Assembly (NCBI GenBank): GCA_024762925.1
Contig: JANTGM010000002.1
Location: 1 to 64,000 of the forward strand
Origin: Kofleriaceae bacterium
GTDB lineage: Bacteria; Myxococcota_A; Polyangia; Haliangiales; Haliangiaceae
DNA length: 64,000 nucleotides
Reading direction: 5' to 3'
Under the pieces are notes generated by a model. That model saw only the letters and a program-made list of their open reading frames with translations, did not search any database and was not told where the DNA came from. Of the stretch, positions 15,900 to 61,153 are shown piece by piece (position 1 is the stretch's first letter; the number at the start of each line of letters is the position of its first letter). The position numbers were made by a program, and so were the translations under genes.

Positions 15900-16024
15900 C
15901 TTCGCCAAGGTAGCACGATTGTCCGGCCAATCGGTGTTATGGACGAGTAGCGGACGAGCCTTGTCCAAGGCTGCAGTTGTATCAATGCGTTGTCGATGGC
16001 ACCAGGAATGCTCAGTGGTTGTGC

Positions 16025-16570
16025 ATGACTTCTAAGCCAGAGCGTTTCCTCGTGTCTCTCGTATGTGCTCTATGCCTCTGTTGGTCGTGCGGTGCCCAAG
16101 ACACGCCAACGCAAGACGAACCTAGGTGCGCTGGGCCCTTTGAGAAAAACCTGCAGGCCATACTGAGATTGCAAGGCGCCTCTAAGACGTATTCCTATTT
16201 GCCAAATAGCGAAGTCTTAGATCAGCTCTCTCGCTACCCGGATTCAATTTGCCCACGGGTGGCCATGGCTCGGGCCATTGTCGCGCTTGTGAACCATGAT
16301 GCCGTGGAATCCTTGGGAGCTGTGGGGCGCGAGAGGGGGGATCCAGCGTGTGGACCCTTGTGCTTGATCGGGCGTCGCTCATCGCTGTTTGGGATCGTGG
16401 CGGATCGCAACTCACCGCTTCGGAATCAGCTCTTGCCCATCGCGCCCAATCTGCAATCTGTAGAGGCGCACTGGGTGTTCTTCTTATCGGTATCAGAACT
16501 GAGCGAGCATGGGTATTGGGCGCTTGTCGCACGTGATGGCAGCGGCGTTGAGGTTGTCTCAACCAACTAG
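16025..16570 (+). CDS. Predicted lipoprotein of unknown function
   Basis: A 181-aa protein from ATG 16025. The N-terminus (FLVSLVCALCLCWSC) is a signal peptide with a Cys at the lipobox, followed by a GAQDTPTQD linker. The body is mixed alpha/beta with a Cys pair (CGPLC at about 118-122) and no recognised motif. It is divergent from the MopE/PPC lipoprotein gene and ends inside the left arm of the palindromic element. I do not recognise a family. Confidence 0.55.
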   Translation: MTSKPERFLVSLVCALCLCWSCGAQDTPTQDEPRCAGPFEKNLQAILRLQGASKTYSYLPNSEVLDQLSRYPDSICPRVAMARAIVALVNHDAVESLGAVGRERGDPACGPLCLIGRRSSLFGIVADRNSPLRNQLLPIAPNLQSVEAHWVFFLSVSELSEHGYWALVARDGSGVEVVSTN

Positions 16571-16694
16571 CGCATGACTCAAAGATGTTGAACGCGCTCA
16601 CTCGTCTTCTCGCCCGCTGGACAGACTGGCTCTGCTACGCGTCCACCGGCGAGAAGACGAGTGAGCGCGTTCTATATTCATGAATCGCGCACTA
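16569..16694. repeat. Palindromic intergenic element with a perfect 25-bp stem
   Basis: Bases 16590-16614 and 16648-16672 are perfect reverse complements around a 33-nt loop. Outside the stem the arms remain imperfectly complementary out to CTAG on the left and CTA on the right. It exactly fills the space between two convergent genes and touches both stop codons. Bases 16667-16692 are identical, in reverse complement, to 41221-41246. It could be a REP or MITE-like unit and may also act as a bidirectional terminator, though neither side has a T-run. Confidence 0.8.
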
Positions 16695-17615
16695 AAGCGA
16701 CCCAGCGAGTGTCAGCACAGCGCCACCACGCACCACCCCAAGTGATAGTGCCTGAGGAGGAGGCTCGGTGGGACGCAGAAAGAGATAGGTCGCAATGCCG
16801 CCGAGGAGTGCACCTGCTCCATATCCGGCTAGCGCGGGGCCAGTGCTGTCACGAGCATGGAAGACAACGCCGGTGCCAATCGCAACTGTGCCGAGGCTCA
16901 GCGCAAGGTAGGGGAGGGGACCCGCACCGCGTTCATCTCGCACGCTTGGCAAGGGCGTCGGAGTCGGCGCTCTTTGGTAGCGCTTGGCAAGGAGTGTCTT
17001 GAACTTCTTCGGTCTTGGATCGGCCGCGCTGGCAACTTGGCCTAGTTCGGCGCCTCGCTCTGCGGTCATGTCGATGCTTGTTTGGTTTGTTCCAGACTCG
17101 GGCTTCAAGGTTATGGGGATGAGCATGCGATCGGTGGAGTCAACTTCGATCGCGAAGCGCCCGCCTTCGAATCCCTCTGCCATCACCTCAAGCTCATAGC
17201 GTCCTTGGTGCAGCCACAGCTCGTCCTCGGTTCGAAGGTCAAGTCTCGCGTAGTCCGATGGCACGTTGGTCACAATGAGTGTGGCGTGTGCGGTTTCTGG
17301 AGTGAGCGCGAGTGAGACAGGAGCAGCCTTGGACATCGATTTTCGTATTCGTTCCCGTACCTCGTGCATTACTTGACGGGTCTCCCTGCTAGGAGTTTTT
17401 CTGTGACAGCGCTCTAGGTAGAGAAGCGCAAGTGTGTCGCTGCGTTGCTTCGAGGCGAGATCTTGGCCTAGCTCGCAAGCATCTTGATCTGTGATGGGCT
17501 GCTCGGCAATGGAGATGTTGGTATCGGGCTCGGCTCCAGTATTGGGCTCGGCCTCGGCGAGCGCAGCCCCACAGGCAAGCATGGCTAGGGCGATAGTCGT
17601 GTGTGTGAGGAGCAT
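16692..17615 (-). CDS. Secreted/membrane protein with PEGA-like domain
   Basis: About 307 aa from ATG 17615. A signal peptide (MLLTHTTIALAMLACGAALA) is followed by an acidic segment, an alpha-helical part with CELGQDLA and YLERCHRK, and a PEGA-like beta domain at about 110-170 (LIVTNVPSDYARLDLRTEDE, GRYELEVMAEGF). Two or three hydrophobic segments near the C-terminus (about 240-295) predict membrane insertion. This domain plan is frequent in myxobacterial kinases and companion proteins, where the PEGA domain sits outside the cytoplasm. TTG 17633 and GTG 17621 are alternative starts. It lies 39 bp downstream of the PhnD-like gene and could belong to that operon. Confidence 0.6.
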   Translation of the reverse strand: MLLTHTTIALAMLACGAALAEAEPNTGAEPDTNISIAEQPITDQDACELGQDLASKQRSDTLALLYLERCHRKTPSRETRQVMHEVRERIRKSMSKAAPVSLALTPETAHATLIVTNVPSDYARLDLRTEDELWLHQGRYELEVMAEGFEGGRFAIEVDSTDRMLIPITLKPESGTNQTSIDMTAERGAELGQVASAADPRPKKFKTLLAKRYQRAPTPTPLPSVRDERGAGPLPYLALSLGTVAIGTGVVFHARDSTGPALAGYGAGALLGGIATYLFLRPTEPPPQALSLGVVRGGAVLTLAGSL

Positions 17616-17654
17616 CTTCACTGTAGAGACCAAGATGAACTCTGTTGTGACACA

Positions 17655-41118: not shown

Positions 41119-41220
41119 TGCGGCAAGCCTACCACGGGCGATAGTGCCAAGTTCAGGAGCATAGATTTGGAGCACGATTCCTGCGCGCGATTCGAACGAA
41201 CTCCAACGCCTGAAGCACTC

Positions 41221-41363
41221 GTGCGCGATTCATGAATATAGAACGCTCTGCCAGTCTTCTTCGTTGTTCATCGGTCGCTTGCCCGAGCAAACTCCCTCTT
41301 CCCACCTCGCCAGAAAACGAGCTGGCTTCGCGATCACGAATCAATGTCCATGGATCGCGCACT
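41221..41363. repeat. Second copy-type element with 16-bp inverted ends
   Basis: Bases 41221-41246 match 16667-16692 exactly in reverse complement. At the other end, GATCGCGCAC with preceding bases (41348-41363) forms an imperfect inverted repeat (14 of 16) with 41221-41236. The interior has no stem like the first element. It lies between the P460 start (41118) and the tonB stop (41386). I see no gene in this 267-bp gap. Confidence 0.6.
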
Positions 41364-41385
41364 AGCAAGATTTTTGAATCTGACA

Positions 41386-60916: not shown

Positions 60917-61017
60917 TCTGGTGTGGAACACCAGACCACAGCGCCGAAGGCGCGAACCACCACGCTTGCTCGCAAGCGTTAGCTAGTTTTTGTCCCTATC
61001 GGGACGGAAACTAGCTA
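60917..61017 (+). ncRNA. Cluster of four hairpins after the PepSY operon
   Basis: Right after the stop at 60910 lie hairpins at 60917-60935 (8-bp stem), 60941-60953 (5 bp), 60962-60979 (7 bp) and 60980-61017. The last pairs 10 bp, two T/G positions that become G-U wobbles only on the + strand transcript, and 5 bp more, giving a 17-bp stem with a TATC loop. There is no T-run. This could be a 3' UTR structure, a small RNA or a repeat; function unknown. Confidence 0.4.
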
Positions 61018-61019
61018 GA

Positions 61020-61153
61020 GCGTATCTCACAACCTCTTCGGTCATCTGAGTCCCGAACTGCGGTGCATCTCGGCGTCGCGAAACCTTGCCATAGAGCGAC
61101 TATGCCTGCGCTCTCGCTCCGGCCCTCGATCAGTGGGTATGAATGAGATACGC
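61020..61153. repeat. 134-bp element with 10-bp terminal inverted repeats
   Basis: GCGTATCTCA at 61020-61029 and TGAGATACGC at 61144-61153 are perfect inverted repeats. Smaller palindromes lie inside (CATAG around 61093 and AGAGCG/CGCTCT). No gene is seen in the whole 60911-61173 gap. It may be a small MITE-like repeat. No second copy was noticed in the window. Confidence 0.45.

Follow-up and report, generated by a model that had tools for sequence, protein, structure and literature searches.

A perfect inverted repeat between convergent genes in a Kofleriaceae bacterium: probable fold-back derivative of a MITE-like element with CTAG ends and a folded core

The inverted repeat and the adjacent genes

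What kind of sequence fills the gap between two convergent genes of a Kofleriaceae bacterium with a long inverted repeat, and is this repeat the mark of a family? The initial annotation of the window (the whole stretch of 64,000 nucleotides that was analysed) had described two arms that are perfect reverse complements over 25 bp, ends touching both neighbouring stop codons, a repetition of the outer part near position 41221 and a missing T-run, not typical of a terminator; it had suggested a mobile or REP-like family. The descriptive part of this account was borne out. The arms were verified by an exact repeat check, the stop codons were located at TAG 16568-16570 (forward gene) and CTA 16692-16694 (reverse gene), the bases after 16672 are TATATTCATGAATCGCG, with no T-run, and the outer part was found at 41219-41235 (1 mismatch in 17). 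It occurs again at 41348-41364 (2 mismatches), and the 17-base outer part has three matches in the window versus 0.22 expected. The 25-mer exceeds in length every other perfect inverted repeat within 160 bp in the window, and 20 mononucleotide shuffles gave 11-14; the z value of the fold was -11.5 as RNA and -8.0 as DNA. The features referred to in the text are the following.

15977-16570, plus strand: upstream convergent gene; homologue in G002, 36% identity over 191 amino acids; without Pfam family
16567-16695, minus strand: CTAG element in fold-back form, made of one left (A) half and a second, inverted A half (BLAST, 183-bp consensus)
16567-16570, no strand: left target copy CTAG, whose TAG (16568-16570) is the stop codon of the plus-strand gene
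16590-16614, plus strand: stem arm 1, 25 bp (exact repeat check)
16648-16672, plus strand: second arm of the stem, reverse complement of the first without mismatch (exact repeat check)
16692-16695, no strand: right target copy, now CTAA; its CTA (16692-16694), read in reverse complement, is the stop codon of the minus-strand gene
16692-17633, minus strand: downstream convergent gene; homologue in G002, 46% identity over 173 amino acids; without Pfam family
41218-41365, plus strand: second element with both ends (CTCG and CTAG), an internal deletion and the core kept (consensus match)
41254-41314, minus strand: core of the second element (GA strand), A-T at the covarying pair (covariance model R2, 44.1 bits, E 2.7e-12)

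When the window copy was compared by BLAST with the 183-bp consensus of the element (see below), positions 1-69 of the consensus matched in forward orientation at 16567-16635 (85.5%) and positions 2-75 in inverted orientation at 16694-16623 (89.2%). The window copy has two A-type ends, and both the B end and the core are missing. The long perfect stem is not shared by the family: the arms of intact copies are imperfect, and the perfection stems from the inverted duplication of one half. The fold-back origin of the window copy is well supported, and its perfect stem, as read from these alignments, is a rearrangement product and not a family feature. Head-to-head composites were also recognized by eye in L002/L040, L136 and L141.

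Copies in the host genome and the intact element

The genome from which the window derives (host genome) is a draft of 6,793,832 bases in 246 contigs. A search for further genomic copies, called for in the initial annotation, yielded 252 matches to the 17-base end (at most 2 mismatches) and none to the reversed control; the absence of further copies, which would have refuted a family, is thereby contradicted. At least 90 BLAST matches to the window copy were obtained with 40 of the 274 candidates scored, and the core sequences of the left (A) and right (B) halves had 195 and 175 matches, respectively, with controls at 0. The true copy number is uncertain because many copies are located at contig ends.

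The intact element is 183 bp long including both CTAGs; its two ends, A and B, carry imperfect terminal inverted repeats (TIRs) of approximately 20 bp. The fetched stretches (772,128 bases, most of which were picked because they carried copies) contained 127 copies: 42 full-length, 43 right-truncated, 24 left-truncated, 4 with neither end and 14 at the edge of a stretch. Stretches not picked for copies (453,554 bases) contained 14 BLAST pieces at eight places. In the second window element, consensus 1-29 lies at 41218-41246 and consensus 63-183 at 41245-41365. Almost half of the right-truncated copies (20 of 43) stop at consensus 94-107, around the core hairpin. A CTNG was present near the break in nine of these 20 copies and in none of the other 11, thus plain two-ended insertion does not account for the latter. 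Since copies are truncated from either side, a one-sided, retro-type insertion was not retained as their explanation.

At least seven subfamilies could be read, with ends of the form CTAGTG-NNN-GATYCA. Those of the host genome are clearly related to one another, and hybrids between subfamilies, with swapped halves, were recognized by eye in this genome (L131, L157, L056, L048 and L150). With a profile built from five sequences, 56 additional places were located without overlap with copies of the window subfamily (c1), two of them in genome G052. Sequence queries against other species were nearly empty: the exact A end had no match in genome_contigs or in viral_contigs, the 126-bp window copy had none in 35 relatives, and a full copy matched in one of 288 other genomes. 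The wider family was revealed by the covariance model only (see below).

CTAG target and empty site

CTAG was found at 65 of 90 A ends (CTCG at 15) and at 54 of 56 B ends. The end tetranucleotides of the 42 full copies were CTAG/CTAG in 20 and CTCG/CTCG in four cases, the rest being others; CTCG on both sides was above chance in this set (Fisher p 0.02). Neighbouring copies chain through one common CTAG. At L046, L061 and L062, elements of the same or of different subfamilies are stacked head to tail with one CTAG common to each pair, which indicates that arrays grow at chosen sites.

An empty site was found in G002, a genome of the same genus, in which the overlap of the same convergent genes consists of the four bases CTAG. 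Both homologues end in that CTAG, and the alignment of the upstream one extends to its last residue. In the window the element splits the CTAG, leaving CTAG on the left, CTAA on the right and both stop codons intact. This evidence comes from one orthologous site, and the right tetranucleotide in the window is changed by one base.

The relation of insertions to stop codons was also seen on a larger scale. Of 146 ends measured in all, 123 were of the stop type and 39 of these closed an ORF of at least 150 open codons, versus 115 of 1,420 background CTAG orientations (p 1.7e-12); in this test ORF length served as a proxy for gene prediction, and some ORFs were truncated at the edges of stretches. 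An insertion into CTAG returns a stop codon to both neighbours, so that elements can accumulate without breaking genes.

In these properties the element resembles a MITE. The 42 full copies are short (approximately 183 bp), have TIRs in their A and B ends and have no transposase inside; target duplication and an empty site are provided by the G002 locus, with the one changed base in the right tetranucleotide, and by the paired CTCG ends; and the TA (CTAG) target is that of IS630-type MITEs. The mobile nature of the element and its CTAG target are well supported.

Transposase partner

No Y1 transposase (PF01797) was detected in the host draft genome, whereas 5 of 14 control genomes gave a match. 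An IS630-type DDE transposase had four matches on three contigs of the host genome, all fragments. IS630 elements prefer CTAG and duplicate TA. On contig 40 (L081, approximately 1445-1890) a decayed IS630 transposase is fused directly to a B end that matches the element consensus without difference over 66 bp; the junction could be a chance insertion. The relic's own terminus was compared with ten element ends. It resembles the ends of subfamilies c5 and c4: as good a match to the left ends was reached in 0 of 2000 shuffles each, and to the right ends in 1 and 2 of 2000. It is unlike the ends of c1, c2 and c3, the values for the window subfamily c1 being not significant (250 and 429 of 2000 shuffles).

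An intact autonomous partner with the element ends was found neither among the IS630 matches of the host genome, nor among the IS630 loci of core-bearing genomes, nor in two acidobacterial genomes. IS630 loci were sought in 25 core-bearing genomes and found in ten, in each case without the ends of the elements present in the same genome. The IS630 loci of G146 matched its element ends at the level of 10-base chance matches only, and in two acidobacterial genomes paired ends lie approximately 162 bp apart, with no larger parent among the places listed. IS630 copies in relatives are also bounded by CTAG (L315, L316 and L331), with different TIRs. An IS630-type transposase is the likely partner.

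The suggestion of a mobile or REP-like family can thus be divided. Mobility stands, in the form of a MITE-like family with shared ends, on the dispersed copies, the common CTAG-bounded ends, the same-genus empty site and an IS630-type relic whose terminus is like those of two sister subfamilies. The REP-like character and the TnpA-REP transposase do not, as the host genome has no PF01797 match and the element has TIRs and CTAG ends, not the form of a short tagged palindrome.

Folded core of the intact copies

Intact copies, including the one at 41218-41365, contain a core of approximately 63 nt. One of its strands is predicted to form a hairpin with tandem G-A mismatches; the loops of the complementary strand are GA opposite GA. 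Seventeen cores (16 from the host genome, one from G052) could be arranged in four helices, in which 8 of 17 pairs were changed on both sides, a count as high in 0 of 500 shuffles; the structure was picked by eye on the same 17 cores, so this count leans its way.

The structure was then derived from other genomes. Covariance model R2, trained on other genomes only, is based on an alignment of 24 of 29 other-genome loci that fit a regular expression. All 29 fetched loci match R2, 24 of them being the training set. In this expression the first two G-A mismatches have set letters, so their constancy is no evidence; pair 16/47, pairs 19-20/43-44, the hairpin and the outer helix are left free. In the 24 loci 94.7% of the cells pair, and 14 of 18 pairs are changed on both sides (94 cells); covariation was 0.636 versus 0.170 in shuffled alignments, and slid versions of the structure reached at most 44.7%. 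RNAalifold recovered the same structure unaided. The third loop, free in the expression, is GA/GA in 20 of the 24 loci, and, of 53 distinct sequences, 50 have a Watson-Crick middle pair (G-C in 25, C-G in 22, A-T in 3). In 18 named records, aligned out of 29 that fit the expression, 87.9% of the cells pair, the search pattern having fixed the 5' half.

Apart from the core at 41254-41314, R2 gave no convincing match in the window. Nine matches reached E 0.01 in 437,554 bases of the host genome (bases 64001-80000 of contig 2 not included); one of them, at L088:8089-8125, was not among the copies already catalogued. Rfam covariance models matched neither the window element, nor three host-genome loci, nor the core of seven other-genome loci. 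Group II intron domain matches (RF02003, 80.6 bits) were noted at L175:2612-2867, approximately 1 kb from a core element and outside the core.

The core in other genomes and phyla

Model R1, built from the 17 cores, detected the core at E ≤0.01 in 70 of 289 genomes of the class, the host genome included; 49 of the 145 genera are represented, and no more than 13 candidates were scored for any genome. The exact core pattern was found in at least 111 stretches of genome_contigs. When R2 was applied to 100 of these, 91 matched at E ≤0.01 and nine failed, including one archaeal and one Frankia record. The titles of the matching records include Acidobacteria, Planctomycetota, Verrucomicrobiota, Gemmatimonadota, Candidatus Aminicenantes and Myxococcota (Kofleriaceae and Nannocystis pusilla, the latter with a copy at L244). 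The majority of the records are metagenome bins, and one labelled Bifidobacterium breve is doubtful. Four stretches of viral contigs with the core pattern were discarded: they are nearly identical to one another and the second half of the core is missing. A search of plasmids with one element of another genome (L187) gave no match.

The core was flanked by inverted repeats above the 99th percentile of shuffles in 50 of the 84 records (among the 111) with both flanks, and in 37 of 44 loci of a hand-picked mixed set (48 loci, four with short flanks being left out). In those 37 loci the cores had a mean identity of 0.75, compared with 0.55 among the ends and 0.54 among shuffled ends; the value for the ends is lowered by some automatic boundaries that overrun the true ends. 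Ends read by eye were also mutually unlike (CTAGTGCCGCGACC, TTAGGGCCCGG, CTAGGAGCCTGTGG and AGTGTCCTGTCCC). Across phyla, the conserved part is what would be called filler and the variable part is the ends, whereas MITEs are usually defined by their ends and the inside is treated as filler.

In the planctomycete bin NORP233 (L200, L205, L211, L220 and L228) nearly identical core elements lie at or near contig ends, which suggests that such repeats break short-read assemblies.

Proposed origin and alternative explanations

Taking these observations together, we consider it probable (roughly 70 per cent) that the window element is a fold-back derivative of a non-autonomous, MITE-like element of approximately 183 bp with CTAG ends, whose core is kept by compensatory changes and whose movement is of the IS630 type. 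An IS630-type transposase would insert and excise the element by its CTAGTG-NNN-GATYCA ends, with TA duplication. Template switching, or a break, close to the core hairpin would then have joined two left halves head to head, creating the perfect 25-bp stem and dropping the core. In the least certain step, the core would contribute to the spread of the element in the form of folded single-stranded DNA or RNA. The constraint on the fold points to such a role, and the fold would serve the element's own spread and not one host gene because the copies sit at unrelated places.

The strong predicted stem and its location between two 3' ends would also suit a bidirectional terminator or an mRNA-stabilising hairpin selected between the convergent genes. 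With hundreds of related copies elsewhere, no T-run and no element at the orthologous G002 site, we regard this as quite improbable, although a terminator-like role borrowed later by the window element is possible. Still further down ranks a REP/BIME repeat moved by a TnpA-REP (Y1) transposase, which would be palindromic, dispersed and intergenic as the element is; a length of approximately 183 bp, TIRs and CTAG ends, and a draft genome without the PF01797 match that 5 of 14 controls have, make it hardly credible, unless the enzyme is encoded in a part missing from the draft.

Two other explanations concern the core. It could be a functionless fossil of one ancestral element, alike by descent and with incidental pairing, as the clear relatedness of the host-genome subfamilies would allow. 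Yet the structure is the same in 24 other genomes with 14 of 18 pairs changed on both sides, it is recovered by RNAalifold unaided, and the ends are no more similar than shuffled sequence; we therefore find a fossil unlikely. Alternatively, the core may be a parasite in its own right, of folded DNA or small RNA, that makes use of the ends of any resident TA-specific transposase. A constant core with changing ends and the hybrids with swapped halves speak for such a parasite, but neither a transcript, a partner protein nor an end swap between genomes was observed, and we entertain it only tentatively. With similar reserve, the sequences might define a small class of mobile elements by the approximately 63-nt folded core and not by the ends, portable across phyla within TIR pairs of unrelated sequence, able to exchange these ends and usable with any TA-specific transposase; its hairpin would have up to three tandem G-A mismatches stacked between short covarying pairs on one strand. 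Such a portable core may act as folded single-stranded DNA or RNA, and the question arises whether a folded core can aid a non-autonomous element in movement or in change of host. No paper describing it was found in one open-licence library.

Comparison with known repeats

As described in the passages of PMC2229807 that deal with it, RUP of Streptococcus pneumoniae, which is linked to IS630-Spn1, resembles the present element in size (approximately 100-200 bp), TIRs, TA-containing target and high copy number, as well as in the indirect nature of the IS630 link, through similarity of the TIRs (PMC2229807). For RUP those passages report no other signature of structure or function (PMC2229807), whereas the present intact copies have a conserved folded core, which recurs with other ends in other phyla. 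Correia/NEMIS, in the same source, is a MITE of 105-155 bp with a long stem-loop and an optional internal block, as here; its internal block carries an IHF site in one genus (PMC2229807), in contrast to a folded core across phyla.

The GTAG- and CGTC-tagged REPs, according to the passages on them in PMC3733652, are also palindromic and often located at the 3' ends of convergent genes, but are 20-40 bp long and have neither TIRs nor a CTAG target (PMC3733652). A passage search of the text of PMC3733652 did not find GCGTTGC, GAGCAAC or CGTCGG. The TM-ECO intrastrand triplex repeats, as presented in parts of PMC4666352, resemble the core as a conserved folding repeat in many genomes and differ from it in sequence (CCCTC...GAGGG); no link to mobile elements is made in those parts (PMC4666352).

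Other repeats beside the elements

Window positions 60960-61090 contain a second dispersed palindromic repeat, ACGCTTGCTCGCAAGCGT, followed by TAGCTAGTTTTTGTCCC...GGGACGGAAACTAGCTA and then by a further repeat. Both repeats recur beside CTAG elements in fetched loci, with 19 and 12 matches in the working set.
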